Positions 27,681-47,562 of a DNA stretch of 64,000 bases are shown here, piece by piece. Each line of letters starts with the position of its first letter. Position 1 is the stretch's first letter. The notes beneath the pieces were generated by a model. It saw only the letters and a program-made list of their open reading frames with translations. It was not told the DNA's origin and made no database searches. Both the position numbers and the translations under genes were made by a program. This DNA comes from Dyella silvae (GTDB taxonomy: Bacteria; Pseudomonadota; Gammaproteobacteria; Xanthomonadales; Rhodanobacteraceae). The stretch covers positions 62,001 to 126,000 of the forward strand of contig NZ_JAPJBQ010000001.1 of the NCBI RefSeq assembly GCF_026421305.1, read 5' to 3'.

Positions 27681-30182
27681 TTAAACAGCCACTACTTTGA
27701 CGGCGCACTTCTTGTAATCGGTTTGCTTGGAGATGGGGTCGGTGGCATCAAGCGTCACCTTGTTGATCAACTGGCCGGCATCGAACCAGGGTACGAACAC
27801 TACTCCGGGCGGCATGTGGTTGCGTCCACGCGTTTCGATGCGCGAGCGCATCTCGCCACGGCGCGACACCACTTTGACCTGATCGCCGCGCTTGAATCCG
27901 CGAGACCTGGCGTCATCGGGGTTCATGAACACGACCGCCTCGGGGAAGCTGCGATACAGCTCAGGCACACGCATCGTCATCGAGCCGGAATGCCAGTGCT
28001 CAAGTACGCGGCCAGTCACCAGCCACAGGTTGAATTCATCATCCGGTATTTCGGCGGGCGGTTCGTAGGGCAACGCCCAGATCACCGCGCGCCCATCGGG
28101 GTTGCCATAGAACTGGAAGCCGGTACCCGCCTTGACGTAAGGGTCGCTGCCCTCGCGATAGCGCCAGCGCGTCTCCTTGCCATCGACCACCGGCCAACGC
28201 AGACCGCGCGCCTGGTGATAAGCGTCGAAGGGCGCGAGGTCGTGACCATGGCCGCGGCCGAACTCGGCGTACTCTTCGAACAAACCCTTCTGTACATAGA
28301 AGCCGAAAGCAGCTGATTCGTCGTTGTCGTAACCGGCTTCGATGTCCGAAACGGGGAAGCGATCCACCTTGCCGTTCTTGAACAGCACGTCGAACAAGGC
28401 CTTGCCCTTGAACTGCGGGTTGGCGGCGAGAATATCCGCAGGCCAGCATTCGTCGGTGGTGAAGCGTTTGGAGAATTCCATCAGTTGCCACAGGTCTGAG
28501 CGCGCCTGGCCCGGTGCTTTCACCAACTGATGCCAGAACTGGGTGCGGCGTTCGGCGTTGCCATAAGCGCCTTCCTTCTCCACCCACATCGCGGCGGGAA
28601 GAATCAAATCAGCAGCCTGCGCCGTGACGGTGGGGTAGGCATCGGAAACGACGATGAAATTCCGGGGGTCGCGATAACCCGGATACGTTTCCTGCATCAG
28701 GTTGGCACCCGCCTGCATATTGTTGTTCACCTGCACCCAGTAGGCATTGAGCAGGCCATCCTTGAGCGCGCGGTTCTGCTGGACGGCGTGAAAACCGGGC
28801 TTGGGCTGAATGATGCCGTGCGGGATCTTCCAGATGTCCTCCGCATGTTTGCGATGTTCGGGATTGGCGACCAGCATGTCGGCCGGCAGGCGATGGCTGA
28901 ACGTGCCGACTTCGCGCGCTGTGCCACACGCAGAGGGCTGGCCAGTCAACGAGAACGGACTGTTGCCCGGCGTGGAGATCTTGCCGGTGAGCAAATGGAT
29001 GTTGTAGACCATGTTGTTGGCCCACACACCGCGTGTGTGCTGATTGAAGCCCATGGTCCAGAACGACACGACCTTGGTTTTCGGGTCCGCATAGAGTTCG
29101 GCCAGCTGCTCCAGCCAACCCTTCTCCACGCCAGTCATTTCCACCGCTTTTTCCAGCGTGTATGGCGCGACAAAGGCGGCAAACTGGTCAAAGTCGATCG
29201 CTTCGCTCGCGTTAGGATCCTTCGCGTTCTTCGCTTTCAGTTCCAGCGGATTGTCAGGCCGCAAGCCATAGCCAATGTCCGTGACGCCGCGCTTGAAGGT
29301 CGTGTGCTGGTTGACGAAATCCTTGTTGACCCGCCCTGTCTTGATGATGTGGTTGGCGATGTAGTTGAGCATGACCAGATCGGTCTGCGGCGTGAACACG
29401 ATGGGAATGTCCGCCAGCTCGAAACTTCGATGCTCGAAGGTCGATAGCACCGCCACCTTGACGTGCGGATTGGAGAGGCGGCGGTCGGTCACACGCGTCC
29501 ACAGAATGGGATGCATCTCCGCCATGTTCGAACCCCATAGCACGAACGCATCGGCGGCCTCGATGTCGTCGTAGCAACCCATCGGCTCGTCCATGCCGAA
29601 GGAGCGCATGAAACCCATGACGGCCGAGGCCATGCAATGGCGAGCGTTGGGATCGAGGTTGTTGGTGCGGAACCCCGCCTTGAACAGTTTGTTGGCGGCG
29701 TAACCCTCCCATACCGTCCACTGGCCGGAGCCGAACATGCCGACGGCGCCGGGGCCTTTCTCTTTCAGCACGCGCTTGAATTGCGCTGCCATCACATCGA
29801 AGGCTTCATCCCACGATACGGGCGTGAACTCGCCGTCTTTGGCATAAGCACCATCCTTTTTGCGCAGCATGGGCTGCGTCAAACGGTCGGCGCCATACAT
29901 GATCTTGGAAAGGAAATAGCCCTTGACGCAGTTGATGCCGCGATTGACCTCGGCGAGCTGGTCGCCATGCGTCGCCACCACGCGGCCATCCTTCACGGCA
30001 ACATTGACACCGCAGCCGGTGCCGCAGAAGCGGCACGGAGCTTTGCTCCATTTGAGCTTGGTCATGTCCCCTTCCAGCAGGACATTGGTCGCGCTTGCCG
30101 GCAAGGCCAGACCGGCCACGTTGGCCGCCACCGCGATGGCGGTGTTGCGGATAAAGTCCCGTCGCGTCATGGTCAGCGTCAT
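27681..30182 (-). CDS. napA: periplasmic nitrate reductase catalytic subunit NapA
   Basis: An 833-residue molybdoenzyme that reduces nitrate to nitrite in the periplasm. A twin-arginine signal ([20 protein letters not shown]) allows export after cofactor insertion. The [4Fe-4S] ligands are Cys50, Cys53, Cys57 and Cys85; the Mo ligand is Cys183 ([10 protein letters not shown]). The cofactor is bis-MGD, made by the Moa/Moe/Mob genes 10 kb away. Length matches E. coli NapA (828). The start overlaps the napD stop by 4 bases (ATGA). Confidence 0.98.
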
Positions 30183-30466
30183 ATGCCTGCTCCTTGAAGC
30201 GGGGATACCCGTTCGTCCATAGCGGCCTGGGGCTCCACGTGGTGGTAGATCAGCGATACGTTGATGATGCCGGGCAGCGCTTCCAGTGCGTCGATGAGAT
30301 CCATCACGGCTCGCTGACTGTCGGTTTCGCACACCATCACGCAGCGGCAATCGCCCCGCACGGCGATGTCCAGCGCGGGGTACTGATCAACGAAGGCTTT
30401 CAGTCTGTCAGCGGCATCGGGGCGATGCAGGACGACAAGGCTGGAGATGTGGTGATCGTCTTTCAT
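30179..30466 (-). CDS. napD: NapA signal-peptide chaperone NapD
   Basis: A 95-residue cytoplasmic chaperone that binds the twin-arginine signal of NapA until the cofactor is inserted. The family pattern [16 protein letters not shown] ... [10 protein letters not shown] ... [15 protein letters not shown] is present. The start at 30466 (MKDDHHIS) fits the family; a further start 6 codons upstream has no support. It is translationally coupled to napA. Confidence 0.93.
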
Positions 30467-30739: not shown

Positions 30740-30864
30740 ATCGACACGCTGGTGTTGGCAATGGTCTGCAAAGCATGCTTGGGTGCGAGCCTGATGCAGT
30801 GTACGCGGCGCGGTTTTTCCATACTATGAAAACCGCGTGAATTCCCTTGATAAAGGAGCAAGGC

Positions 30865-31401
30865 GTGACAAAACCGGTGGGTACGTGGTTTTACTTAAGT
30901 AGCTTCTTTCTTGGTGCCTGCCTGGTGTTTGCGGCTCATGCAAACGATGCGCCCACGGCCGTAACACCGGCGGGAGTGCAGGTGCTGGCGGCGGGCAAGT
31001 CCCCGTTGACGCTGGACGCGAAAACCTTGGCCGGCATGCCGCACGAGGAAGTCACGGCGTCGTCGCATGACGAGCCTGCCAGTCAATGGCGGGGCGTGAA
31101 GCTGGTCGATGTGCTGGCGAAGGCGGGCGTGTCGCTTGAAAAGCCACTACACGGAAGGTCATTGGCCTCGTTCGTTCGCGTCACGGCGGCGGATCGGTAT
31201 CAAGTCGTGTTTGCTCTTTCCGACCTCGATCCTACGTTAGGCAACACGCGGGTGCTGTTGGTCGACATGCGCGATGGCAAGCCGCTGGAAAAAGATGGCC
31301 CATTCCGGTTGTTGGTGCCGGGTGACAAACGACCGGCGCGCTGGGTGCGCAATGTCACGGTGATAGAAGTGGTGGACGGCAGCTCATCAGACGCGCGTTG
31401 A
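30865..31401 (+). CDS. small exported protein with a sulfite-oxidase-like (Oxidored_molyb) fold
   Basis: A 178-residue exported protein. A signal peptide (LSSFFLGACLVFAAHA) precedes a domain like the Moco-binding domain of sulfite oxidase-type enzymes: SPLTLDAKTLAGMPHEEVTA, WRGVKLVDVLAKAG, VVFALSDLDP and the end PFRLLVPGDKRPARWVRNV. The mature protein has no cysteine, so the usual Mo-ligating Cys is missing. It may not carry the cofactor, or may bind another ligand. Translation most likely starts at GTG 30865, 6 bases after AAGGAG. It lies between the nap and fds operons, divergent from nap. Confidence 0.75.
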   Translation: MTKPVGTWFYLSSFFLGACLVFAAHANDAPTAVTPAGVQVLAAGKSPLTLDAKTLAGMPHEEVTASSHDEPASQWRGVKLVDVLAKAGVSLEKPLHGRSLASFVRVTAADRYQVVFALSDLDPTLGNTRVLLVDMRDGKPLEKDGPFRLLVPGDKRPARWVRNVTVIEVVDGSSSDAR

Positions 31402-31644: not shown

Positions 31645-32483
31645 GGCCGCTCCTGTTGTGCCGCGGGTAGCAGGCGTTGAGAGTGGGTGTAGACATTGTG
31701 GCTGCCGGGGCGCGCAAAGCCCACCAGGGTCATGCCTGCGCTGCGTGCCAATTCGATGGCCAGCGCGGTTGGGGCGGAGATGGCCGCCAGCAGGGGAATG
31801 CCTGCACTGGCGGCCTTGGTGACCATTTCGTAGCTTGCCCGGCTGGTGACGAGCGCCATGCCATCGTTCGAAGGGATACCCGCGCGGCGCATCGCGCCAA
31901 TCAGCTTGTCCAGTGCGTTGTGCCGGCCCACGTCTTCACGCACAAGTACGATGTGCCCGGTCCTGTCAGCCCATGCCGCAGCGTGAACGGCGCCGGTGGC
32001 GCTATTCATCGGCTGCAAGGTTTGGAGTTGGTGCAAGGCAATCTCGAGCGCATCGCGCGTCAAGGTCACACCGGCGGCCACGGAACCGCTTTGGCGAATG
32101 GCGTGCTCCAGGTCGCGGGTACCGCAGATGCCACAACCGCTACGGCCCGGCATCAAGCGCTGCTGTTCGATACGCGCCCCCGGGGCATCGTCGGTTACGC
32201 GCATGGTCAACTCGATGCCTTCGAGCAGCGCATGGCTTTTCACTTCCAGCAACTGAGCGGCATCGTTGATCAACCCTTCGCTCAGCGAGAAGCCAAGCGC
32301 AAAGTCGTCAAGGTCATGCGGTGTCGCCATCATCACCGCAAAACTGCTGCCGTTGTAGACCATGGCTACGGGCACCTCTTCGGCAACGAAGTCGTCCTCA
32401 TGCACGGGCTTGCCGTGACGCCAGCGGTCGATCGCGCGGCGCACGAATCCTTTAGAGGTGCCTTCTTGCTCGGGCGTGCTCAA
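31641..32483 (-). CDS. fdhD: formate dehydrogenase accessory sulfurtransferase FdhD (FdsC)
   Basis: A 280-residue cytoplasmic protein that passes sulfur from the cysteine desulfurase to the molybdenum cofactor of formate dehydrogenase. It carries the sulfur-transfer loop CGICGT, the VREDVGRHNALDKLIG motif and the end GMTLVGFARPG. In fds operons it is also called FdsC. I place the start at TTG 32483, where TTGA overlaps the fdsA stop like the other joints of this operon. An ATG at 32552 would reach 73 bases into fdsA and seems less likely. The resulting 280 residues match E. coli FdhD (277). Confidence 0.88.
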   Translation of the reverse strand: MSTPEQEGTSKGFVRRAIDRWRHGKPVHEDDFVAEEVPVAMVYNGSSFAVMMATPHDLDDFALGFSLSEGLINDAAQLLEVKSHALLEGIELTMRVTDDAPGARIEQQRLMPGRSGCGICGTRDLEHAIRQSGSVAAGVTLTRDALEIALHQLQTLQPMNSATGAVHAAAWADRTGHIVLVREDVGRHNALDKLIGAMRRAGIPSNDGMALVTSRASYEMVTKAASAGIPLLAAISAPTALAIELARSAGMTLVGFARPGSHNVYTHSQRLLPAAQQERP

Positions 32484-35362
32484 GCGGGTTTCACCGACTG
32501 TTCCAGCAGCGCCTCCTGCGCCTCGGTAAACGCCCGATGGCGCCGTTGCCATTCGGATGGCTGGGTGACACGCGTGACCTGTACGGCCGTGACCTTGTAC
32601 TCCGGACAGTTGGTGGCCCAGTCCGAGTTCTCCGTGGTGATCACGTTGGCGCCAGAGCCGGGAAAGTGGAAGGTGGTATAGACAACGCCCGGTTGCATGC
32701 GTTCGGAGAGGGTCGCGCGCAGCACGGTTTCGCCGGCGCGGCTTGCGATGCCGACCCAGTCGCCTTCAAGAATGCCGCGTTCTTCCGCATCGTGCGGGTG
32801 AATTTCCAGCCGGTCCTCGTCGTGCCACATCACGTTGGCGGTACGCCGTGTCTGTGCGCCGACGTTGTACTGGCTGAGGATGCGCCCGGTAGTAAGAATC
32901 AGTGGATGCTCGGCAGTGACCTTTTCTGAGGTGGGCACGTACTCGGTGAGCATGAAGCGCCCCTTGCCGCGCACGAACTCGCCGACGTGCATGACCGGCG
33001 TGCCGGAGGGGTGCTCTTCGTTACATGGCCACTGGATGGAGCCCAGCTGATCGATCTTTTCGAAGCTCACGCCATGGAAGGTGGGTGTGAGTCGCGCAAT
33101 CTCATCCATGATTTGCGAGGTATGCGTGTAGTTCATGGGATAGCCCATCGCCTGTGCGAGCAGCTGCGTGACCTCCCAGTCCGCGTAGCCGCCTTTGGGT
33201 TCCATCACCTTGCGCACGCGGGAGATGCGTCGCTCGGCATTGGTGAACGTGCCGTCTTTCTCCAGGAACGAGCTGCCGGGCAGGAACACGTGAGCGAACT
33301 TGGCGGTCTCGTTGAGAAACAGATCCTGCACCACGATGCATTCCATGGCGGTGAGAGCGGCGGTCACGTGCTGGGTATCCGGATCGGACTGGGCGATGTC
33401 CTCGCCCTCGATGTAGAGCCCTTTGAAACTGCCGTCCAAAGCCGCTTCGAACATGTTGGGAATGCGCAGGCCCGGTTCGGCCAGCAGCGGCACGCCCCAG
33501 GCTTCCTCGAAGGAATGACGCACGGCGTCGTCGCTGACGTGGCGATAGCCCGGAAACTCGTGCGGGAACGAGCCCATGTCGCACGAGCCCTGCACATTGT
33601 TCTGTCCTCGCAGCGGATTCACGCCCACGCCTTCGCGGCCGATATTGCCGGTGGCCATGGCGAGGTTGGCGATGGCCATCACCGCCGTGGAGCCTTGCGC
33701 GTGCTCAGTGACACCCAGGCCGTAATAAATGGCACCGTTGCCACCGGTTGCGTACAAACGCGCCGCGGCGCGTGCCGACGCTGCCGGCACGCCAGTGACG
33801 TTTTCCATGGCCTCGGGGCTGTATTTCTCCTGCGCGACGAAAGCCCGCCATTTCGCGAAGGCTTCCGTCTCGCAACGACTGGCAACAAACGTCTCGTTCA
33901 CCAGATCCTCGGTCACGATGACATGGGCCAGCGTATTGAGGAGCGCGACGTTGGTGCCGGGGCGAAGACGCAGGTGGTGGTCGGCCTTGATATGCGGTGT
34001 ACGCACCAGGTCGATCCGGCGCGGATCGATGACGATCAGGCGCGCGCCGGCGCGCAGGCGCTGTTTCATCTGCGAGCCGAATACGGGGTGCGCATCCGTC
34101 GGGTTGGCACCGATGACCAACACGACGTCGGTGGATGCGATGGAATCGAAATCCTGCGTGCCGGCGGATTCGCCCAGCGTCGCCTTGAGTCCATAGCCGG
34201 TGGGCGAGTGGCAAACGCGGGCGCAGGTATCGACGTTGTTATTGCCGAAACCCGCGCGCACCAGCTTTTGCACGAGGTACGTTTCCTCGTTCGTGCAGCG
34301 CGAGGAGGTGATGCCGCCAATGGCATGGTTGCCGTAAGCGGCCTGCAGTCGCCTGAACTCGCTGGCGACATGAGCGATGGCTTCGTCCCAGCTGACGGCA
34401 CGCCACGGGTCGGAGATCTTCGAGCGGACCATGGGCGTGGTTATGCGATCCGGGTGCGTGGCATAGCCCATGGCGAAGCGGCCTTTTACGCACGAATGAC
34501 CGTGATTGGCGTGGCCGTCTTTGTTCGGGACCATGCGCACCAGATCCTGGCCCTTCATTTCCGCGCGGAAGCTGCAGCCCACGCCGCAATAGGCGCAGGT
34601 GGTGACAACGCTGTGCTCCGCCTGGCCTTTGTCTATCAATGAGGTTTCTGAAAGCGTCGCCGTGGGACAGGCCTGCACGCAGGCGCCGCAGGACACACAC
34701 TCCGATTCAAGAAAACGATTGTCCTGGCTGGCCGATACCTTGGATTCAAAACCGCGCCCCTGGATGGTCAGCGCGAACGTTCCCTGGATTTCGTCGCAGG
34801 CGCGCACGCAGCGCGAACAGGCAATGCACTTGGAGGGGTCGAACGTGAAGTACGGGTTGGATTCGTCCTTGGCCGCGAACAGCGGATTGGCCGTGCCGTC
34901 CTTTTGCTTCGCATAGACGTGGTTGGCGCCGTCGTAGCCGTAACGTACTTCGCGCAGGCCAACCACGCCGGCCATATCTTGCAGTTCGCAATGGCCGTTG
35001 GCGGGGCAGGTAAGGCAGTCCAGTGGGTGATCGGAGATGTAAAGCTCCATCACGCCGCGGCGGATCTGAGCCAGCTTGGGCGTCTGCGTGGCGATCTTCA
35101 TGCCTGCGCTGACGGGCGTGGTGCAGGAGGCGGGATAGCCCTTGCGGCCCTCGATCTCTACCAGGCACAGGCGGCACGATCCGAACGCTTCCAGCATCTC
35201 CGTTGCGCACAACTTGGGGATGCTGATGCCAGCTTGTGCCGCCGCACGCATGACCGAGGTCCCTTCGGGCACTTCGATGCGCTGGCCGTCAATCTCCAGC
35301 GCAACCATGGTTTCTGACCGGGACTTGGGCGTGCCGTAGTCGATCTCGACGATGGAAAGCAT
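32480..35362 (-). CDS. fdsA: NAD-dependent formate dehydrogenase alpha subunit (Mo, Cys type)
   Basis: A 960-residue catalytic subunit oxidising formate to CO2. The N-terminus has a [2Fe-2S] domain (Cys52, 63, 66, 80), then the NuoG-like cluster (Cys116, 119, 125), two [4Fe-4S] clusters (Cys179, 182, 185, 189 and 222, 225, 228, 232) and a further cluster (Cys256, 259, 263, 291). The Mo ligand is Cys384 (ARVCHSPTGYG), not selenocysteine. Electrons pass to FMN and NAD in FdsB. The cofactor is bis-MGD. It lies 15 bases after fdsB and overlaps fdhD by 4 bases. Confidence 0.97.
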   Translation of the reverse strand: MLSIVEIDYGTPKSRSETMVALEIDGQRIEVPEGTSVMRAAAQAGISIPKLCATEMLEAFGSCRLCLVEIEGRKGYPASCTTPVSAGMKIATQTPKLAQIRRGVMELYISDHPLDCLTCPANGHCELQDMAGVVGLREVRYGYDGANHVYAKQKDGTANPLFAAKDESNPYFTFDPSKCIACSRCVRACDEIQGTFALTIQGRGFESKVSASQDNRFLESECVSCGACVQACPTATLSETSLIDKGQAEHSVVTTCAYCGVGCSFRAEMKGQDLVRMVPNKDGHANHGHSCVKGRFAMGYATHPDRITTPMVRSKISDPWRAVSWDEAIAHVASEFRRLQAAYGNHAIGGITSSRCTNEETYLVQKLVRAGFGNNNVDTCARVCHSPTGYGLKATLGESAGTQDFDSIASTDVVLVIGANPTDAHPVFGSQMKQRLRAGARLIVIDPRRIDLVRTPHIKADHHLRLRPGTNVALLNTLAHVIVTEDLVNETFVASRCETEAFAKWRAFVAQEKYSPEAMENVTGVPAASARAAARLYATGGNGAIYYGLGVTEHAQGSTAVMAIANLAMATGNIGREGVGVNPLRGQNNVQGSCDMGSFPHEFPGYRHVSDDAVRHSFEEAWGVPLLAEPGLRIPNMFEAALDGSFKGLYIEGEDIAQSDPDTQHVTAALTAMECIVVQDLFLNETAKFAHVFLPGSSFLEKDGTFTNAERRISRVRKVMEPKGGYADWEVTQLLAQAMGYPMNYTHTSQIMDEIARLTPTFHGVSFEKIDQLGSIQWPCNEEHPSGTPVMHVGEFVRGKGRFMLTEYVPTSEKVTAEHPLILTTGRILSQYNVGAQTRRTANVMWHDEDRLEIHPHDAEERGILEGDWVGIASRAGETVLRATLSERMQPGVVYTTFHFPGSGANVITTENSDWATNCPEYKVTAVQVTRVTQPSEWQRRHRAFTEAQEALLEQSVKPA

Positions 35363-37846: not shown

Positions 37847-39115
37847 ATGATCGGTTACGAACAGGCACTCGAACGACTCATGGCGCACGCTCGTCAGCTA
37901 CCCGCTGAGCGGTGCGCGAGGTCTGCAGCACTCGGACGTGTGTTGGCGAGCGACGTGATCAGCCCCATGGCGTTGCCCTCGTTCGACCATGCGGCGATGG
38001 ACGGCTATGCGCTCAACGCCAGTCAGCCTTGCGAGGCGGGCTCCGAGCATGTGGTGATCGGCTCGCAGGCCGCGGGCGACAAAGCGCAGTCATCGTCTGG
38101 CATGGCGTGGGAAATCATGACCGGGGCGCATTTGCCGGATGGCCTGAACGCGGTGGTGCCGGTCGAGCGAACCCAACTGCTGGAGACGCGCGCCGATGGC
38201 GCGCCCCAACGCATTCGTTTGCTCGACAGGTTGGAGCAGGGCGCCAACGTGCGCTATGCGGGCAGCGATGTGGCGGAAGGGCGTACCGTGATCACGGCCG
38301 GTACCCGCATCGAACCGGCGCATGTCATGTTGCTCGCCGCGCTCGGTGTGGCGACCGTTGCGGTGGTGCGTGCGCCGCGCGTGGCGGTGATAGCGACGGG
38401 TAAGGAATTGCAGCCGGATCCCACCCAGCCACTCGTGCCCGGTCAAATTTACGGATCCAACGGCCCTTATCTGGTTGCGGCATTGGCGGCTGCCGGCGCG
38501 CAAGTGCTGTCGTGCGACACCGTGGACGACACGGCTGACACCTATGCCGATGCCATACAGCGCGCCCATCGCGCGGGTGCCGATGTGATCATCAGCACCG
38601 GCGCTGTCTCGATGGGGCGTTACGACTTTGTGCCCGATACCTTGCGCGCGCTAGGCGCCGAGCTGTTGTTTCACAAGGTCGCCATGCGTCCCGGCAAGCC
38701 ACTGCTGGCCGCCAGGCTCGCTAACGGCACGTTGGTGATGGCCCTGCCGGGCACACCGATGGCGGTGGCGGTGGGATTCCGGTTTTTCGTGGTGCCCGTG
38801 CTGCGGGCCATGCGTGGTCAGGCGACCGAGCGGCCGCTTTACGCGGTACTCGATGCCCCGCAGCAGTCCAAGCCGGGTCTTTGCCATTTCCTGCGTGCCA
38901 CGGTGACCCAGGATAGGGAAGGGCGTTTGCACGCCCATGTACTCAGTCGTCCGCAGCCATTTCGGATGGAGCCGTTCGTCCAGGCCGATGTCTGGGTGGT
39001 GCTGCCCGAGAATGCCGGTGAATGCCTGGCGGGCAGCATGGTGCTCATTGCTGGCTTGCAACCCGGTGCACTGTTTGCCGAGATGAGTCAGATGCCGCAG
39101 GAGGCAGCTTCATGA
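37847..39115 (+). CDS. moeA: MoeA-family molybdopterin molybdotransferase, diverged paralogue
   Basis: A 422-residue MoeA-type protein, the family that inserts molybdate into adenylylated molybdopterin. The fold is clear (FDHAAMDGYAL, MTGAHLPDG, GQIYGSNGPYLVAAL, and a MoeA C-terminal domain). Several conserved loops differ from the canonical enzyme: STGDEL is ATGKEL, SSGGVSxG is STGAVSMG, and LPGNP is LPGTP. The second copy at 42163 keeps the canonical forms. This copy may serve a special partner, such as formate dehydrogenase or nitrate reductase, or bind rather than catalyse. The stop overlaps the next gene by 4 bases. Confidence 0.88.
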   Translation: MIGYEQALERLMAHARQLPAERCARSAALGRVLASDVISPMALPSFDHAAMDGYALNASQPCEAGSEHVVIGSQAAGDKAQSSSGMAWEIMTGAHLPDGLNAVVPVERTQLLETRADGAPQRIRLLDRLEQGANVRYAGSDVAEGRTVITAGTRIEPAHVMLLAALGVATVAVVRAPRVAVIATGKELQPDPTQPLVPGQIYGSNGPYLVAALAAAGAQVLSCDTVDDTADTYADAIQRAHRAGADVIISTGAVSMGRYDFVPDTLRALGAELLFHKVAMRPGKPLLAARLANGTLVMALPGTPMAVAVGFRFFVVPVLRAMRGQATERPLYAVLDAPQQSKPGLCHFLRATVTQDREGRLHAHVLSRPQPFRMEPFVQADVWVVLPENAGECLAGSMVLIAGLQPGALFAEMSQMPQEAAS

Positions 39116-39526: not shown

Positions 39527-40303
39527 ATGAACCGTGGGATATGGCGTGGACTGTTGTTGCTCGGCGTCGCACTCGTGCCCTGGTCGATGGCTTCGGCGGC
39601 CGATGATCACATCACCGTCGCAGCGGCCGCCGACCTGCACCACGCCATGGACCAGGTCGTCGAGGCCTATCGGCATGACCATCCAGGCAGCCGCATCGAG
39701 GTGGTCTACGGTTCCTCCGGCAATCTGCTGACCCAAATAGAGCAAGGCGCGCCATTCGAGCTGTTTTTTTCCGCCGACAGCGACTACCCGCAGCAGCTGG
39801 TGGCACATGGCAAGGCGGGTGGAACGCCGGTGCCTTACGCGCTCGGTCATCTCGTGCTGTGGAGCGCCAGCCTCGACATGACCAACGTGCAGGTCGCCGA
39901 CCTTGCCCAGCCGCGCTTCGGCCGCATTGCCATCGCCAATCCGCAGCACGCGCCGTATGGCAAGCGTGCCGAGCAGGCGCTGCGCAAAGCGGGCGTATGG
40001 GACAAAGTGCAGGACCGGCTCGTATTCGGAGACAACATTGCGCAGACGGCGCAGTTCACACAGAGCGGCAATGCCCAGGTCGGCCTGGTTGCCGAGTCGC
40101 TGGTGCTCGCCTCCCCCGGTAAGGGTAGTTACGTACCCGTACCGCAGGCGTTGTATGAACCGTTGCGCCAGAGTTTCGTGGTGACCCAGCGTGGTGCTCA
40201 AAACGCGCTGGCGCAGGACTTTTCGCATTATGTGCAGGGCGCACAGGCAAGGGCGATTTTGAGCCGTTTCGGATTCAGCCTGCCTGACAACACGGTGCCC
40301 TAA
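39527..40303 (+). CDS. modA: molybdate-binding periplasmic protein ModA
   Basis: A 258-residue periplasmic binding protein for molybdate (and tungstate). The signal peptide ends ASAADD. Family features are VAAAADLHHAMDQVVEAY, YGSSGNLLTQIEQGAPFELFFSAD, IANPQHAPYGKRAEQAL and NIAQTAQFTQSGNAQVGLV, which supply the oxyanion-binding Ser, Ala and Tyr sites. It is the first gene of modABC; no ModE-type operator was recognised in the 70 bases upstream. Confidence 0.95.
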   Translation: MNRGIWRGLLLLGVALVPWSMASAADDHITVAAAADLHHAMDQVVEAYRHDHPGSRIEVVYGSSGNLLTQIEQGAPFELFFSADSDYPQQLVAHGKAGGTPVPYALGHLVLWSASLDMTNVQVADLAQPRFGRIAIANPQHAPYGKRAEQALRKAGVWDKVQDRLVFGDNIAQTAQFTQSGNAQVGLVAESLVLASPGKGSYVPVPQALYEPLRQSFVVTQRGAQNALAQDFSHYVQGAQARAILSRFGFSLPDNTVP

Positions 40304-40312
40304 GCGACGAAC

Positions 40313-40996
40313 ATGACGCTGCTGTCCGACCAGGATCTGCAAGCACTCGGGCTGACGTTGCGGCTGGCCACAACGGTCACCGCGCTGCTGCTTTTGCTCG
40401 GCACGCCGTTGGCGTGGTGGCTGGCGCACACGCATTCTCGCTGGCGGCGCCCGGTAGCGGCGGTGGTGGCATTGCCGCTGGTGTTGCCGCCGACCGTGCT
40501 GGGTTTCTATCTGCTGATGTTATTGGGCCCTGATGGCGCCGTTGGACGGCTTATCGCTGCACTGGGTTTGTCGGCGCTGCCGTTCACCTTCAAGGGTCTG
40601 ATGGTGGCCTCGATGCTGTATTCGTTGCCGTTCGTGGTGCAGCCGCTCAACAACGCTTTCGAAGCCATCGGCAACCGGCCGATGGAAGTGGCTTCATGCC
40701 TGGGTGCCGGTCCGTTGGACCGCTTTCTCACGGTAGCGCTTCCGCTGGCGTTGCCTGGCATCCTGACCGCCACCGTGCTGGGTTTCGCACACACCGTGGG
40801 TGAGTTTGGCGTGGTGCTCATGATCGGCGGCAACATCCCGGGGCAGACGCGCGTGCTGTCGATGCGTATCTACGATCACGTGCAGGCGGGCGAATATCAC
40901 CAGGCGAACGTGTTGTCGTTGTGCCTGCTGGTGGTGTCGTTCACCGCGCTGTTGGCGATGTCGTTGTTACGCACTCGCAGGTATCCGCGTGACTGA
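40313..40996 (+). CDS. modB: molybdate ABC transporter permease ModB
   Basis: A 227-residue inner membrane permease with about five membrane segments. VVALPLVLPPTVLGFYLLML at the start and the EAA loop (LGAGPLDRFLTVALPLALPG) that docks with ModC are clear. It starts 9 bases after modA and overlaps modC by 8 bases. Confidence 0.96.
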   Translation: MTLLSDQDLQALGLTLRLATTVTALLLLLGTPLAWWLAHTHSRWRRPVAAVVALPLVLPPTVLGFYLLMLLGPDGAVGRLIAALGLSALPFTFKGLMVASMLYSLPFVVQPLNNAFEAIGNRPMEVASCLGAGPLDRFLTVALPLALPGILTATVLGFAHTVGEFGVVLMIGGNIPGQTRVLSMRIYDHVQAGEYHQANVLSLCLLVVSFTALLAMSLLRTRRYPRD

Positions 40997-42074
40997 GGCG
41001 CTGCACGGTCTGGATGCCCGGCTTTCCTGGCGGCGAGGAGATCTCGCGCTGGATATCGATATTGCCTTGCCGCCGCGCGGTATCACCGCCTTGTTCGGGC
41101 CCTCTGGTGCAGGCAAAACCAGCTGCCTGCGCGCCATCGCAGGCCTGGAACGAGCGGAGGGGCGCGTCTCGTTTGGTCACCAGATGTGGCAGGACAGCGC
41201 AAGCCGCGTATTCGTGCCGCCGCACCGGCGGAAACTGGGCTACGTGTTTCAGGAAGCCAGCCTGTTCAGCCATCACACGGTGGAAGGTAATCTCGATTAT
41301 GGCTATCGGCGTGCGGGCAGACCGGCACATCTCGATCGCGAAGGGCTGATTGATCGCTTCGGCGTGCGGCCCCTGTTGAAGCGGCGCGTCAGCGGGCTCT
41401 CAGGCGGCGAGCGCCAGCGGGTATCCATGGCGCGGGCGCTGCTATCGGATCCCGCGTTATTGCTGTTTGACGAACCGTTGTCGGCGCTTGATGGAACGGC
41501 ACGATCGGACCTCCTCGGCTGCCTGGAAGATCTGCACGCCACGCTGCAGGTACCCATGATCTACGTAAGCCACAACGTCGATGAAGTGTCGCGGCTGGCC
41601 GATCATCTGGTGCTGATGGAGGCGGGCCATGTCGTGGCGCAGGGACCGCTGCAAGCCACGCTGACCCGCCTCGATCTGCCGCCGGCGCTGGGGGAGGCGG
41701 TGGGCGCGGTGATTGAAGGCGAGGTGGTCGGTTATGACGCCCACGACCAGCTGATCGGGCTTGCCTTTGCCGGAGGCCACCTGTGGCTGCCCTACCGTCA
41801 CGAGGTGGTGGGGCAGACCTTGCGCTGTCGCATCGGCGCACGCGATGTGGTGCTGACCCATGCGCCCCAGGAGGGGAGCAGCGCGCTGAACCAGATCCCG
41901 TGCCGCATCGTTGCCATGGCTGATGCGGATCATCCCTCGCAATGTCTGGTGCAGCTCGATGCCGGAGGCTGCACGCTGCTTGCACGCATCACGCGGCGGT
42001 CGTGGCACGCGCTGGGGCTTGAGCCGGGCGGCGAGGTTTGGGCTCAAGTCAAGGCTGTGGCATTAGGCCCCTGA
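40989..42074 (+). CDS. modC: molybdate ABC transporter ATP-binding protein ModC
   Basis: A 361-residue ATPase of the molybdate importer. Walker A is GPSGAGKTS, the signature is LSGGERQRV, and Walker B is LLLFDEPLSALD. The C-terminal third is a TOBE/molybdate-binding domain (VIEGEVVGYDAHDQL ... LLARITRRSWHALGLEPG). The start is GTG 40989 inside the end of modB, giving an 8-base overlap. Confidence 0.95.
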   Translation: MTEALHGLDARLSWRRGDLALDIDIALPPRGITALFGPSGAGKTSCLRAIAGLERAEGRVSFGHQMWQDSASRVFVPPHRRKLGYVFQEASLFSHHTVEGNLDYGYRRAGRPAHLDREGLIDRFGVRPLLKRRVSGLSGGERQRVSMARALLSDPALLLFDEPLSALDGTARSDLLGCLEDLHATLQVPMIYVSHNVDEVSRLADHLVLMEAGHVVAQGPLQATLTRLDLPPALGEAVGAVIEGEVVGYDAHDQLIGLAFAGGHLWLPYRHEVVGQTLRCRIGARDVVLTHAPQEGSSALNQIPCRIVAMADADHPSQCLVQLDAGGCTLLARITRRSWHALGLEPGGEVWAQVKAVALGP

Positions 42075-42162: not shown

Positions 42163-43371
42163 ATGTCCATGACCGAGCTGATCAGCGTTGCCCAGGCCGA
42201 AGCCCTGATAGCCGAACACATGCCATCCTTTGGCAGTGAGCGGATTCCCCTGGAGCAAGCGGCGGGCCGCGTTTTGCGCCAGGTAGTGCAGGCCGAGCAC
42301 GATCATCCGCCATTTGACCGCGTGATGATGGACGGCATTGCGTTGCGCTGGAGCGAGCCGCTGCCCCGAGAGTTTGCCTTCGCCGGTACGCAAGTGGCCG
42401 GCATGGTCAGGCAGGCGCTGCAAGCCGGCGACACCTGCATCGAAGTAACCACGGGCGCCATGCTGCCGGCCGGCTGTGATTGCGTCGTTCCGGTAGAGCA
42501 GCTTCGTCGCGACGGTTCGCACTATCAGCTGGTCGACGGCTATCAGCCCGCCCGGGGACAATTCATTCATCCGCGTGGCTCGGACTGCCTCGCAGGGGCG
42601 AAATTGCTGGCCCCTGGTACGCGCATTGGTCCGCCAGAGGCAGCGTTGCTCGCGGCAAACGGTGTCGCGGCCGTCGAAGTCGCGTGCATTCCATCGATCG
42701 CCATCGTCTCGACCGGCGATGAGTTGGTGGACGTCGAGGCCGCGCTCGGGGAGGGGCAAATCCGCCGCTCCAACGACATGGCCATTGCCACCGCATTGCG
42801 TCTGGATGGCTTCGACCGCGTGACGATGGAACATATCCCCGACGACGCGTCCCTGACCCAGGATAAGCTGGCCCAGCTGCTGGAAAGGCATGACGTGCTG
42901 GTGCTCTCCGGTGGCGTCTCGATGGGGCAGCGTGATTTCGTGCCAGGGGCGCTTGATGCGCTGGGTGTGCGCCGCGTTTTCCACCGCATCGCCCAGAAGC
43001 CCGGCAAACCCATGTGGTTTGGCATGGGTTCGCGCCGGCAGGCCGTGTTCGCCTTGCCGGGTAACCCTCTGTCTGCCTTGGTTTGCGCCAGCCGATACGT
43101 AAGGCAAGCCCTACGGTTATCCCTGGGTATCCCGACATCACCGCCGGAATTTGCCTGCTTGGACGCCGCCGTAGATACCAGCACCATGTTGACCTGTTTC
43201 GTACCCGCCCATGTCCAGACCGATCCGCAGGGCCGGTTCATCGCCTATCCGGTTCCTTCACGCACCTCGGGTGATTTTTCTACCCTGCCGCGTACGCAGG
43301 GGGTGGTGCAGTTGCCACCCGGCGAGAGCCGCGCGGCGGCGGGTACCGTTGTAGCGTTCTACCGGTGGTGA
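42163..43371 (+). CDS. moeA: MoeA-family molybdopterin molybdotransferase, canonical copy
   Basis: A 402-residue enzyme that inserts molybdate into molybdopterin. Canonical loops are present: TTGAMLPAGCD, VSTGDELVDVE, LSGGVSMGQRDFV and LPGNPLSALV. The N-terminal motif reads PPFDRVMMDGIAL, slightly different from the E. coli FDNSAMDGYA. The start at 42163 or 42169 has no clear ribosome binding site. It runs into moaA with one base between stop and start. Confidence 0.93.
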   Translation: MSMTELISVAQAEALIAEHMPSFGSERIPLEQAAGRVLRQVVQAEHDHPPFDRVMMDGIALRWSEPLPREFAFAGTQVAGMVRQALQAGDTCIEVTTGAMLPAGCDCVVPVEQLRRDGSHYQLVDGYQPARGQFIHPRGSDCLAGAKLLAPGTRIGPPEAALLAANGVAAVEVACIPSIAIVSTGDELVDVEAALGEGQIRRSNDMAIATALRLDGFDRVTMEHIPDDASLTQDKLAQLLERHDVLVLSGGVSMGQRDFVPGALDALGVRRVFHRIAQKPGKPMWFGMGSRRQAVFALPGNPLSALVCASRYVRQALRLSLGIPTSPPEFACLDAAVDTSTMLTCFVPAHVQTDPQGRFIAYPVPSRTSGDFSTLPRTQGVVQLPPGESRAAAGTVVAFYRW

Positions 43372-43372
43372 C

Positions 43373-44422
43373 ATGAGTGCAATCGATGCCGTTTCCGAAC
43401 TGACCGAGGCGCTGCCCCGCGACCAGCGAGGCCGGCCGCTGCACGACCTGCGCATCTCGGTGATGGATCGCTGCAACTTTCGCTGCCCCTACTGCATGCC
43501 CGAGGCCACCTACGGCGAGCACTTCACCTTTCTGCGCAACGACGAGCGGTTGAGCTTTGACGAAATCGAGCGCTTGTGCCGCCTGGCCGCTTCGCTGGGA
43601 GTGAGCAAGCTGCGTCTGACCGGCGGCGAGCCTTTGCTGCGCCCGCAGTTGGCCGAACTGGTGGCGCGGCTGCGTCGACTGAATGGCATCACCGATCTGG
43701 CGCTCACCACCAACGGCGTATTGCTGGCACGGCACGCCACCGAACTGCGCGAGGCCGGCCTGGATCGCGTCACCATCAGCCTGGATACGCTCGACCCCGC
43801 GTTGTTCCATCGCATGAGTGGCGGGCGTGGCGCGCTGGACGATGTACTGGCTGGCGTTGAAGCGGCGCAGGCCGCCGGCTTCCCTAATGGCGTGAAGCTC
43901 AACACCGTCGTGCAGCGCGGCGTCAACGAACACACCGTCACCGATCTGGTGGAGCGCTTTCGCGGCACCGGTATCGTGGTGCGTTTCATCGAATATATGG
44001 ACGTTGGTAACCGCAATGACTGGCGCCGGGAGGCAGTGGTGCCATCGCAGGAGTTGGTGCAGCGGATTCATGATCGCTGGCCGCTGCGAGCCGTGCCGCC
44101 CAAATACCCCGGTGAGGTGGCCACGCGGTATCGCTTCGAGGATGGTGCCGGCGAGATTGGCATGATTTCCTCGATCAGCCAGCCGTTCTGCGGCGGCTGC
44201 TCGCGAGCCCGGTTGTCCTCGGAGGGCATGCTTTACACCTGCCTGTTCGCCGATCACGGCACCGACCTGCGCCATCCGTTGCGTCAGGGAGCCAGCGACG
44301 ACGAACTGACCCGGTTGCTCCGTGATGTCTGGCTGCGCCGCAACGACCGCTACAGCGAAGAACGCGCGGAGCGCCATAGCAAACCCAGCCACAAGATCGA
44401 GATGCATTACATCGGCGGTTAG
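43373..44422 (+). CDS. moaA: GTP 3',8-cyclase MoaA
   Basis: A 349-residue radical SAM enzyme that, with MoaC, turns GTP into cyclic pyranopterin monophosphate. The N-terminal [4Fe-4S] site is CNFRCPYC and the C-terminal cluster is FCGGCSRARLSSEG with a later Cys in YTCLF. The protein ends in Gly-Gly, as required for activity in this family. It directly follows moeA; moaC starts 88 bases later. Confidence 0.97.
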   Translation: MSAIDAVSELTEALPRDQRGRPLHDLRISVMDRCNFRCPYCMPEATYGEHFTFLRNDERLSFDEIERLCRLAASLGVSKLRLTGGEPLLRPQLAELVARLRRLNGITDLALTTNGVLLARHATELREAGLDRVTISLDTLDPALFHRMSGGRGALDDVLAGVEAAQAAGFPNGVKLNTVVQRGVNEHTVTDLVERFRGTGIVVRFIEYMDVGNRNDWRREAVVPSQELVQRIHDRWPLRAVPPKYPGEVATRYRFEDGAGEIGMISSISQPFCGGCSRARLSSEGMLYTCLFADHGTDLRHPLRQGASDDELTRLLRDVWLRRNDRYSEERAERHSKPSHKIEMHYIGG

Positions 44423-44510
44423 AGGGTTTCCTCTAGACAGTTTCTTAATGTCTGTGCTGCCCACCGGGAAGATAATCGTAAATGCCGACACCATTCATTC
44501 GGAGCACGCC

Positions 44511-45005
44511 GTGACCGTCACGTCTGCCACGCTGTCCCACGTCGACGAGGCGCAGCAGCCGCGCATGGTCGATGTTGGCGCCAAGCCGGTCACGCATCGC
44601 ACCGCGCAGGCGCGGGCGCGGGTGACTTTTCCGCACGACGTTGCCCAGACGTTGCACGCTGCCGGCTATGTCACGCCGAAGGGCGCCGTGCTTACCGTGG
44701 CGCAGATTGCCGGCGTGATGGGTGCCAAGGCGACGCCGCAGCTGATTCCGCTGTGCCATCCGCTCAGCATCGACCGATGCGATATCGCCATCCACATGGA
44801 CGGCGACGATGCGTTGATCGACTGCACCGTGTCCTGCCGTGGCAGCACGGGCGTGGAGATGGAAGCGCTGACGGGCGCTTCCATCGCGGCACTGACCATC
44901 TATGACATGTGCAAGGCGATGTCGCATGACATCGTGATTGCCGAGATCCGCCTGGTGAAGAAGACCGGCGGCAAGCACGATTTTGGTGCGCAGGAGCAGG
45001 CATGA
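44511..45005 (+). CDS. moaC: cyclic pyranopterin monophosphate synthase MoaC
   Basis: A 164-residue enzyme for the second half of the GTP rearrangement. PRMVDVGAKPVTHRTAQARA, LIPLCHPLSID and VEMEALTGASIAALTIYDMCKA are family signatures. I choose the GTG at 44511, with CGGAG 6 bases upstream, because it gives a length like E. coli MoaC (161); an ATG at 44448 would add 21 residues. The stop overlaps mobA by 4 bases. Confidence 0.95.
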   Translation: MTVTSATLSHVDEAQQPRMVDVGAKPVTHRTAQARARVTFPHDVAQTLHAAGYVTPKGAVLTVAQIAGVMGAKATPQLIPLCHPLSIDRCDIAIHMDGDDALIDCTVSCRGSTGVEMEALTGASIAALTIYDMCKAMSHDIVIAEIRLVKKTGGKHDFGAQEQA

Positions 45006-45601
45006 ACGCATCACGTCCGCCACTTTATGGCCTGTTGCTTAGCGGTGGCGCCAGCCAGCGCATGCGGCAGGACAAGGCGGCGCTCGCTTATCGCGGGGAG
45101 CCGCAACTGTTGCGTGCGTGGCATCTACTGGAGGCAGTGACCGAACGCTGCTTCCTTTCGGTGCGCGAGAGTCAGCGCGACGACACCTTACGCGCAGGCT
45201 TACCGCAGATCGTGGATAGCTACGACGCGATCGGCCCTGCTGCCGGCATCCTCTCCGCACAGGAGCGTTACCCCGAAGCCGCCTGGTTGGTGCTCGCCTG
45301 CGATCTTCCCTTGCTCGGTGCCGATACGCTGCGCTCGTTAATTGCGGCACGCGACGCCGGCGTCGATGCCACGGCTTTTACCAGCCGCCACGATGGCCTG
45401 CCCGAGCCGCTGTGCGCTATCTGGGAGCCATCTACCCATGCGCTGCTGAAGCAACGGTATGACGCAGGCAGTTATTGTCCGCGAAAGACATTGATTCAAT
45501 CCCGCACCGTTTTGCTGCCAGCGCCCGGCGAGGCGCTGGATAACGTCAACACACCCGAAGAAAGAGAAGCCATGCAACATCGGTTGGAGTCGCTGGCATG
45601 A
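45002..45601 (+). CDS. mobA: molybdenum cofactor guanylyltransferase MobA
   Basis: A 199-residue nucleotidyltransferase joining GMP to Mo-molybdopterin to form the MGD cofactor used by NapA and FdsA. YGLLLSGGASQRMRQDKAAL is the GTP-binding start; LACDLPLLGADTL and DNVNTPEE complete the family pattern. It overlaps moaC and moaD by 4 bases each. Confidence 0.93.
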   Translation: MNASRPPLYGLLLSGGASQRMRQDKAALAYRGEPQLLRAWHLLEAVTERCFLSVRESQRDDTLRAGLPQIVDSYDAIGPAAGILSAQERYPEAAWLVLACDLPLLGADTLRSLIAARDAGVDATAFTSRHDGLPEPLCAIWEPSTHALLKQRYDAGSYCPRKTLIQSRTVLLPAPGEALDNVNTPEEREAMQHRLESLA

Positions 45602-45840
45602 CCGTGGTGAATTTGCAGTATTACGCACAGCTGCGCGAGCAAGCCGGCACCAGCAGCGAGCAGGTGACGACAACGGCCGCGTCCCTGCAGGAACTGTATG
45701 AAGAATTACGCGTACGTCGCGGCTTCTCGCTGACGGCTGAAGCGCTGAAGGTTGCCGTCAACGCTCAGTTCAGCGCCTGGGATCGCCCGCTACGCGATGG
45801 CGACACGATTGTTTTCATTCCGCCGGTGGCAGGTGGCTGA
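45598..45840 (+). CDS. moaD: molybdopterin synthase small subunit MoaD
   Basis: An 80-residue ubiquitin-like sulfur carrier ending in Gly-Gly (FIPPVAGG). The C-terminus is adenylylated by MoeB, thiocarboxylated, and gives its sulfur to MoaE. It overlaps mobA by 4 bases and shares one base with the fusion gene that encodes its two partners. Confidence 0.96.
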   Translation: MTVVNLQYYAQLREQAGTSSEQVTTTAASLQELYEELRVRRGFSLTAEALKVAVNAQFSAWDRPLRDGDTIVFIPPVAGG

Positions 45841-47396
45841 TGCGTTTTCGTCTTTCCAGCGAGGCCGTGGATTCGGCGCAGCTGCGCGATGCGCTGCGGC
45901 ATCCTGCAAGTGGTGGCTTCTGCGCCTTCGAGGGCTGGGTGCGCAACAGCAATGAGGGGCAGGAGGTCGACGGGCTCTCCTATGAGGCTTATGCCGATCT
46001 TGCGATGGCGGAAGGCGAGCGCATCGTTGCCGAGGCGATCGAGCGTTATGGCGTCACCGATGCGTGCTGCCTGCATCGCACGGGTGATCTGAAGATTGGT
46101 GACATGGCCGTGTGGGTCGGTGCGTCCGCCCCGCATCGCGACGAAGCGTTTCGTGCCTGCCGCTACATCATCGACGAAATCAAACACCGGCTGCCGATCT
46201 GGAAGAAGGAGCACTACGTTACCGGTGAATCCGACTGGGTTGCCTGCACGCACGTGTATCGCGAGCACGAACACGAGCGGCATCACCATCATGGGCACGC
46301 GCACCACACCCATGCGGAAGCCTTCGTTCCGGATTACTCACGACAGGTGCGGCTGCGCGAAGTGGGCGAGGCGGGGCAGGCGAAACTGGCGGCCGCACGG
46401 GTCCTGGTAATTGGTGCGGGTGGCCTGGGGTGTCCCGTCATCAGCTATCTGGCGGGAGCAGGGGTGGGAACGCTCGGCTTGGTCGACGGCGATCGCCTCG
46501 ATGCCAGCAATCTGCATCGGCAGACGATGTACCACGCCCGCGACATCGGTGAGCTTAAGGTGGATCTGGCGGCTCGGCGCGTCGCTGAGCTCAATCCCAC
46601 CGTTACCGTGCAGACGTGGACGGAGCCGCTGGACGTTGCGAATGCGGTCGACGTGTTCGGTCAGTTCGATCTGGTGGTGGAGTGCACCGACGACATGCGT
46701 AGCCGCTATCTGAGCAGCGACGCAGCGGTGGTCAGCGGTACGCCGCTGATACTCGCCAGCATCTACCAGTACGAAGGGCAGCTTCAGTTTGTGTCGGCAC
46801 AGCCCGGTCAGCCTTGCCTGCGCTGCCTGTGGCCGGATGAGCCGGCGCCGCATGCTGTGGGCAGTTGCGCGCAATCGGGCGTGCTGGGTCCCGTGCCGGG
46901 CGTGCTCGGCGCAATGCAGGCGACGGAGGCGTTGAAAGTGCTGCTGGGGTTGCCGCAGCCGAGCGGATCATCATTGGTATTGGTGAATCTGCTCGATTTC
47001 ACTATCCAGCATCTGCCGATCGATTCCGCCCAGGGCTGTGCTCTTCACGGTGGCTGCGTCGAGGTAGCGCGTCGCGCGTTGTCTGAGGCAGAAGATGAGG
47101 CAGGGATCGATCTCGCGTTCGGGCGATTGGAAGACGCCATGGCCCAGGGTTTCACCATCGTGGATTTGCGCGATGCAGATGAGATCGCCCTGGAGCCGAT
47201 GCCGGTAACGGTTGCGCGATGGATTCCTTCCGCACAGGTCATGGCTCGCTCTTGCGAACTGACCGCGGGGAGGCAGTTGCTGGTGTGCGCCAGCGGTCGC
47301 CGTAGTGCGCATGCGGCGCGTCAGTTGCGCGCCAGGGGGATGCGAGAGGTGTATTCGTTGGCAGGCGGCTTGGCTGCGCTGCGCCTGACGATCTGA
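45840..47396 (+). CDS. MoaE-MoeB-rhodanese fusion protein
   Basis: A 518-residue protein with three fused parts. Residues 1-140 are MoaE, the large subunit of molybdopterin synthase (FEGWVRNSNEG, HRTGDLKIGD, the lysine-rich KHRLPIWKKEHY). Residues 141-160 are a His-rich linker (HEHERHHHHGHAHHTH). Residues 166-400 are MoeB, the MoaD-adenylating enzyme (GAGGLGCPVISYLAGAG, NLHRQ, CLRCLWPD); its second zinc motif reads CALH where E. coli MoeB has CxxC. The end (about 415-518) is a rhodanese domain with Cys483 in LLVCASGRRSAHAA. It could adenylylate MoaD, load sulfur and use it on precursor Z. It ends the moa operon. Confidence 0.92.
   Translation: MRFRLSSEAVDSAQLRDALRHPASGGFCAFEGWVRNSNEGQEVDGLSYEAYADLAMAEGERIVAEAIERYGVTDACCLHRTGDLKIGDMAVWVGASAPHRDEAFRACRYIIDEIKHRLPIWKKEHYVTGESDWVACTHVYREHEHERHHHHGHAHHTHAEAFVPDYSRQVRLREVGEAGQAKLAAARVLVIGAGGLGCPVISYLAGAGVGTLGLVDGDRLDASNLHRQTMYHARDIGELKVDLAARRVAELNPTVTVQTWTEPLDVANAVDVFGQFDLVVECTDDMRSRYLSSDAAVVSGTPLILASIYQYEGQLQFVSAQPGQPCLRCLWPDEPAPHAVGSCAQSGVLGPVPGVLGAMQATEALKVLLGLPQPSGSSLVLVNLLDFTIQHLPIDSAQGCALHGGCVEVARRALSEAEDEAGIDLAFGRLEDAMAQGFTIVDLRDADEIALEPMPVTVARWIPSAQVMARSCELTAGRQLLVCASGRRSAHAARQLRARGMREVYSLAGGLAALRLTI

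Positions 47397-47477: not shown

Positions 47478-47562
<85 letters not shown>

Follow-up and report, generated by a model that had tools for sequence, protein, structure and literature searches.

In known molybdopterin biochemistry, charging of the sulfur carrier MoaD takes place within a (MoaD-MoeB)2 complex, after which MoaD reassociates with MoaE2 (PMC5372717), and MoeBR and MoeZR thiocarboxylate MoaD (PMC3227635); sulfuration of MoaD-type carriers by MoeBR/MoeZR and MOCS3 is described in these two sources. Because MoaD is recharged after every sulfur transfer, it must leave MoaE, visit MoeB and return. Fusions of pathway components (MoaD-MoaE, MoaD-MoeB, MoaD-MoeBR, MoaC-MoaE and MoaE-MBIP) are mentioned across a group of papers (PMC1779556, PMC11237513, PMC6147048, PMC3227635, PMC4326299, PMC5372717, PMC9228816, PMC2948915, PMC9324259, PMC6321594). 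According to a supplement legend of PMC2948915, MoaE is one of the genes or domains that occur in association with E1-like enzymes of archaea, and a MoaE fusion may be among these cases. A search confined to PMC full text found no description of a MoaE-MoeB fusion. The Dyella silvae gene reported here is composed of known parts in an arrangement for which we found no description in the literature covered.

The window analyzed is a 64,000-nucleotide stretch of the D. silvae genome, and all coordinates refer to it. A single 518-residue frame with an ATG start (45840–47396, plus strand) is assigned MoaE, ThiF/MoeB and rhodanese domains from the ORF list and Pfam and is conserved as one frame; its ATG overlaps the TGA of moaD. 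The MoaE domain (residues 6–117; 45855–46190) scores 120 bits against a Pfam cut-off of 23.4, the ThiF/MoeB adenylation domain (residues 166–396; 46335–47027) 236 bits against 28.1, and the rhodanese-like domain (residues 430–513; 47127–47378), with the active-site loop C483-A-S-G-R-R-S, 22.7 bits, barely above its cut-off of 22.2. A His-rich linker (residues 138–164; 46251–46331) precedes the ThiF domain and corresponds in a comparison of tails to the C-terminal tail of MoaE. All three Pfam domains are matched in 20 of 20 aligned fusions, and MoaE is matched in 49 of 50 fusions at E 0.001, with a single miss; L105 lacks most of MoaE, its contig beginning there. None of the 24 listed NCBIfam families reaches its equivalog cut-off on the fusion (the best, PRK08762, scores 299 of 449 bits, and the PRK10678 MoaE model 79 bits against 175), and by sequence its nearest PDB entry is Uba4.

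The residues expected of the three activities are in place. Fusion F30, R35, H99, R100, K115 and K122 (the last just beyond the Pfam MoaE match) align with Escherichia coli MoaE F34, R39, H103, R104, K119 and K126, of which K119, K126, R39, H103 and R104 are presumably catalytic. Similarly, R168, N224, R227, K240, D284, C326, C329 and C343 align with E. coli MoeB R14, N70, R73, K86, D130, C172, C175 and C187. All of these positions are invariant across 20 fusions, and K115, K122, N224, R227, K240 and D284 are also invariant columns in a 50-fusion alignment. Rhodanese residues C483, G486, R488 and S489 are invariant in the 20 fusions, and the first three are kept at 90% or more in the 50-fusion alignment. 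The order of a ThiF domain followed by a C-terminal rhodanese with a C-x-x-G-x-R-S loop is that of MoeBR and MOCS3. The first zinc pair (C326-x2-C329) is present; the second is C400-x5-C406 in the Dyella branch rather than C-x2-C, with CPVC or a similar motif in several other phyla. The rhodanese is the least conserved part, at 40–62% identity compared with 61–89% for MoaE in the same three pairs; Pfam recognizes it in 35 fusions of a set of 50, a set in which four or more members are truncated by contig ends, and no rhodanese loop was recognized in L108 (4998–6122), a MoaE-ThiF fusion of an Opitutus bin.

A structure model built from a 50-row alignment (mean pLDDT 90.8, pTM 0.68) is matched by Foldseek to a precursor Z-bound MPT synthase of Staphylococcus aureus (2qie_A; TM 0.94 by target, rmsd 1.3) and to MoeB of the MoeB-MoaD complex (1jw9_B; TM 0.88 by target), as well as to ThiF and Uba4, all in one chain. 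At this pTM the predicted placement of the domains relative to each other is uncertain. Residues 137–139 and 146–158, both in the linker, have pLDDT below 50, and the linker was likewise disordered in an earlier model (20 rows, pLDDT 76), for which a structural comparison (VIA-align) bore largely on the ThiF part and gave no match to a MoaE chain among those listed.

The fusion is a real, conserved variant of known parts. A full-length, stop-free match is present in 18 of 20 sampled genomes of its own genus (the Dyella group, D. silvae included), G005 and G017 being those without, and one frame is also kept in many independent assemblies; we therefore reject a frameshift or assembly error, which the initial annotation had named as grounds for abandoning its reading. 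That annotation, made from this sequence, had placed three activities in one chain next to a free moaD, and the domains, the residues matching three active-site sets and the lack of any other MoaE in the genome bear it out; its interpretation as a whole is partly supported.

The gene closes a row of molybdenum cofactor genes on the plus strand. The overlapping moaD (45598–45840) encodes a free 80-residue sulfur carrier of the Pfam ThiS family that ends in ...FIPPVAGG, with a C-terminal Gly-Gly, and is identical to E. coli MoaD at 26 of 78 positions. Upstream of it Pfam identifies a mobA-like gene (NTP_transf_3; 45002–45601), moaC (44322–45005; start within the ORF unsettled, domain at residues 82–217), moaA (GTP 3',8-cyclase; 43373–44422, also over the TIGR02666 cut-off), a moeA-like gene (42163–43371) and a modC-type molybdate ABC ATPase gene (ABC_tran and TOBE; 40989–42074), directly upstream of which are ModA- and ModB-like ORFs, named by eye, starting at 39527 and 40313. 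A domain scan finds a second moeA-like gene (37847–39115, plus strand) in the same molybdenum cluster. Farther left on the minus strand are genes for two likely cofactor clients, the formate dehydrogenase alpha subunit (32480–35362; over the TIGR01591 cut-off) and the periplasmic nitrate reductase NapA (27681–30350; over the TIGR01706 cut-off), together with an FdhD gene, so that the cofactor genes and their likely clients are grouped. A small Oxidored_molyb-domain protein is encoded between the NapA and FdhD genes (30847–31401). Just downstream of the fusion gene is a tRNA-Leu (cag) on the opposite, minus strand (47478–47562). A promoter and terminator scan gave nothing exceeding shuffled sequences.

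The link to moaD is well conserved elsewhere. It is directly upstream of the fusion in 20 of 20 loci of a first set and in 37 of 40 fusions of a second set, five of which repeat the first; L105 is cut at its start, and L091 and L104 have no moaD within the stretch examined. Cofactor genes are found beside seven of nine fusions of other organisms whose flanks were scanned in part, with none in the one flanking ORF scanned at each of L100 and L104. In a Bacteriovorax bin, a MoaC fused to a MobA-like domain (L103:3724–4767) adjoins a MoaE-MoeB-rhodanese fusion.

The fused copy is the only MoaE in the D. silvae genome, and separate MoaE genes are also absent from 20 of 20 other fusion genomes, where all 22 MoaE matches are in frames of at least 391 residues; 14 of these 20 are metagenome bins and possibly incomplete. 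The fusion should therefore supply molybdopterin synthase. Genomes G919 and G923 have two MoaE matches each, every one in a frame that also holds ThiF. The fused copy is the sole ThiF match at E 1e-25 in six of the 20, and the additional ThiF matches in G919, G920 and G925 resemble TcdA by size and matched part. In D. silvae the ThiF-family matches are the fusion, a partial TcdA-like match and L001, a 388-residue rhodanese-ThiF protein encoded about 334 kb away that passes the NCBI PRK08762 MoeB equivalog cut-off; no dedicated thiF is thus seen, and thiS is located elsewhere, beside a gene resembling thiG (ThiG was named by eye). G005 and G021 have no MoaE match at E 0.001 and keep the rhodanese-ThiF protein, and Frateuria defendens (G925) has the fusion and no rhodanese-ThiF protein, a pattern suggesting that the L001 type serves ThiS and the fusion MoaD. 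L001 probably does serve ThiS, judging from these few genomes, and it could also charge MoaD. The moa operon has no separate moaE or moeB; the expectation that no separate moeB is needed holds for the operon only, as the genome has another MoeB-type gene in L001.

Outside Dyella the distribution is rare and patchy in the class and phylum samples, and wide when relatives are sought directly. Among 41 genomes scanned as relatives (D. silvae included), one genome of a further genus (G022) has a full-length, stop-free match. In the family sample 21 of 147 genomes carry a one-frame fusion: 12 of 12 genomes of the genus, six others, and three in which the match is split by a longer linker within one frame. 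The class and phylum samples give at least 2 of 369 and at least 2 of 398 full-length matches among the matches listed, the D. silvae genome included in each, and these figures may miss split matches. A separate search found MoaE in 130 of 185 class genomes, and only D. silvae and G056 have it in a frame of more than 300 residues. In one genus member (G017) a different, unfused MoaE (L170; 37% identical, its tail containing His) is present instead of the fusion.

A contig scan, from which we took the best 80 of at least 577 relatives, yielded 47 candidates for checking; 40 are single frames with MoaE and ThiF, and seven (L075, L095, L102, L106, L107, L109 and L113) are not. Earlier loci brought the single-frame cases to 60 (L064 being dropped as a repeat of L035), removal of four more repeats left 56, and six further distinct fusions (L152–L155, L167 and L169) raised the count to about 62. 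The distinct single-frame MoaE-ThiF fusions thus number at least about 62, of which four or more (L076, L099, L101 and L105) are truncated by contig ends. Record titles and NCBI lineages place them in nine phyla: Pseudomonadota, Hydrogenedentota, Kiritimatiellota, Lentisphaerota, Verrucomicrobiota, Melainabacteria (Obscuribacterales), Armatimonadota, Zixiibacteriota and Bdellovibrionota. The architecture, whose occurrence across genomes the initial annotation proposed to check, is far more widespread than expected there. Carriers outside Pseudomonadota are mostly single bins, and the distant carriers come mainly from metagenomes. We do not accept bin contamination as the whole explanation, given that Pontiellaceae bacterium B1224 is a carrier whose record is not labelled as a bin and that, of 145 genomes drawn from its phylum, 6 have a fusion (B1224 being one of the 6), with an identity to the query of only 40–43% in four cases; the single bins L100, L103 and L085 are doubtful carriers. 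Among 72,556 plasmid records 353 match in part, and none reaches 80% coverage of the protein at a single site.

Phylogenies of the two halves differ. In a careful ThiF tree, for which 88 of 130 rows were kept after dropping 42 near-duplicates, fragments and distant rows, 40 fused rows, six adjacent pairs and the split case G796 form one clade of 47 (support 100/99), and the fused or unfused state changes four times; a quick tree made earlier from 99 rows recovered this group with a support of 99 and three such changes. The clade falls among MoeB-rhodanese proteins, and its nearest neighbors, L043, L063, L115 and L171, joined at 88/93, also match in the rhodanese part. For MoaE, a quick tree of 81 of 117 rows rejects a single clade of fused, adjacent and split sequences (p-AU 7e-6) and gives 11 changes; an earlier 85-row MoaE tree was poorly resolved. 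In this sample the MoeB half makes up a single well-supported lineage that is fused or adjacent to moaE save for one split case. The sampling favors moaE-linked members, as the contig scan used MoaE motifs and unlinked MoeBR entered through protein scans only. In the adjacent pairs L075, L095 and L102 a single in-frame stop separates moaE and moeBR, and in L106, L107 and L109 they overlap or follow in other frames. The split case is in the Dyella family: G796 encodes a MoaE with a His tail (L166) and a MoeBR (L165; G796:C1) about 744 kb apart, and this MoeBR begins at the linker end, the split falling at the linker position. The history may have been one ancient fusion followed by splits that freed MoaE several times, or several fusions that each involved this one MoeBR lineage and a neighboring moaE.

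The His-rich sequence to which the initial annotation drew attention is present exactly, at residues 143–158, and is not specific to the fusion. At least four His follow the catalytic lysine in 21 of 48 unfused MoaE (for example in Steroidobacter), a sample biased toward fusion-like MoaE, and four His are found in none of 28 readable tails of the E. coli type, drawn from the loci of the 30 best PF02391 matches and so favoring that type. A W-x-x-C motif, with a shift of a residue or two allowed, is present in 54 of the 55 fusions compared and in 42 of the 48 unfused MoaE; for C-x-x-C the corresponding counts are 23 and 35. The Cys/His segment is therefore a trait of a MoaE subtype. Linkers outside Pseudomonadota are often short and His-poor, with several His kept in L087, L101 and L103. 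Dyella ginsengisoli and relatives (L092, L167–L169) have an extra insert of about 30 residues beginning VVPA, which speaks for a tolerant tether; this insert is possibly a translated repeat element. That the tail, with its nearly constant cysteine and, in many members, a His cluster after it, is a metal site as well as a tether seems to us unlikely. It could in that case hold a soft metal (such as copper or zinc) beside the new dithiolene and shield the latter until MogA/MoeA take over; copper is reportedly found on the MPT dithiolene of plant Cnx1G. We found no paper on a His-rich MoaE in PMC full text.

The domains, active-site residues, operon, single MoaE and conservation make it very probable that the fusion joins the organism's only MPT synthase large subunit to the recharger of its sulfur carrier. 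A catalytic cycle in the uncut chain, presumably a homodimer, can be envisaged in which free MoaD would dock on the ThiF domain and have its C-terminal glycine adenylated with ATP. The persulfide of rhodanese Cys483 would attack the MoaD acyl-adenylate, and Cys343 would probably free the thiocarboxylated MoaD, the role proposed in MOCS3 for Cys239. MoaD-COSH would then move to a MoaE domain of the same homodimer and sulfurate cyclic pyranopterin monophosphate, each dithiolene requiring two sulfurs, and spent MoaD would go back to the ThiF domain. MoaD may stay a separate protein so that its C-terminus can get to both sites, and the His-rich MoaE tail would act as the tether. Taken with the biochemistry of the precedents, the fusion would put both docking sites in one molecule and leave the MoaD C-terminus free.

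The persistence of one-frame fusions in many lineages bears on whether the chain works uncut, since the fusion might instead be a pro-protein whose His-rich linker is cut by a protease to give separate MoaE and MoeBR, as in the mycobacterial MoaX, which requires cleavage between MoaD and MoaE (PMC4326299). The linker is predicted with low confidence, varies in length and accepts an insert, and G796 of the same family has both halves as separate genes divided at that point. However, MoaX is cut to free the MoaD C-terminus, and the Dyella MoaD is already free and gives no need to cut; together with the persistent single frames this leaves processing unlikely. Highly improbable, in our estimation, is that the ThiF-rhodanese part acts mainly on another carrier (ThiS, or one for tRNA thiolation) and that only the MoaE part serves the cofactor. 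Uba4 as the closest PDB sequence and the best NCBIfam MoeB score of 299 against 449 bits would fit this, but the partner gene is moaD with the moa operon, thiS is elsewhere beside the thiG-like gene, and the rhodanese-ThiF type, being kept in G005 and G021, which show no MoaE match, is the better fit for ThiS.

The joining could also be a neutral accident of neighboring operon genes that brings no gain, which is compatible with a joined synthase and recharger and to which we give a real if minor chance. The relatives in which moaE and moeBR are neighbors divided by an in-frame stop or lying in overlapping frames (L075, L095, L102, L106, L107 and L109) are what such an origin would leave, and fused and unfused states alternate in both directions; that the fusion is kept in 18 of 20 genus genomes and in distant lineages suggests nevertheless that it is at least not harmful. 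We favor the reading of a synthase subunit joined to its recharger, and with both docking sites in one chain a shuttle within one complex becomes directly testable. The MoeB half, marking a lineage fused or adjacent to moaE in several phyla of our sample, should also be useful for annotation, since none of the 24 matching NCBIfam models reaches its cut-off.

Compared with described systems, the fusion shares with MoeBR, MOCS3 and Uba4 the order of ThiF and rhodanese, the expected positions of Cys343 and C483 and, by inference, activation of a MoaD-type carrier, but differs from them in its N-terminal MoaE and the second zinc pair C-x5-C of its branch. It keeps the fold, lysines, arginines and histidine of E. 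coli and S. aureus MoaE, but belongs to another subtype, marked by W-x-x-C and in many cases by a His-rich tail at the C-terminus, and runs on into MoeBR. The PRK08762-type MoeB (L001) has the same two activities, but its rhodanese is N-terminal to ThiF, its position in the tree is separate and it has no MoaE. The fusions of MoaD to MoeB or MoeBR described from archaea and from some bacteria (PMC11237513) concern the same pathway step but fuse the carrier and not MoaE. MoaX of Mycobacterium tuberculosis and the Deinococcus radiodurans MoaD-MoaE likewise join MoaD-handling components; however, MoaX joins the carrier to the synthase and must be cut, whereas the Dyella carrier is free, encoded by its own moaD gene that overlaps the fusion gene, and it is the charger to which the synthase is joined. 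A fusion of the carrier thus needs cutting, whereas a fusion of the carrier's two partners does not.
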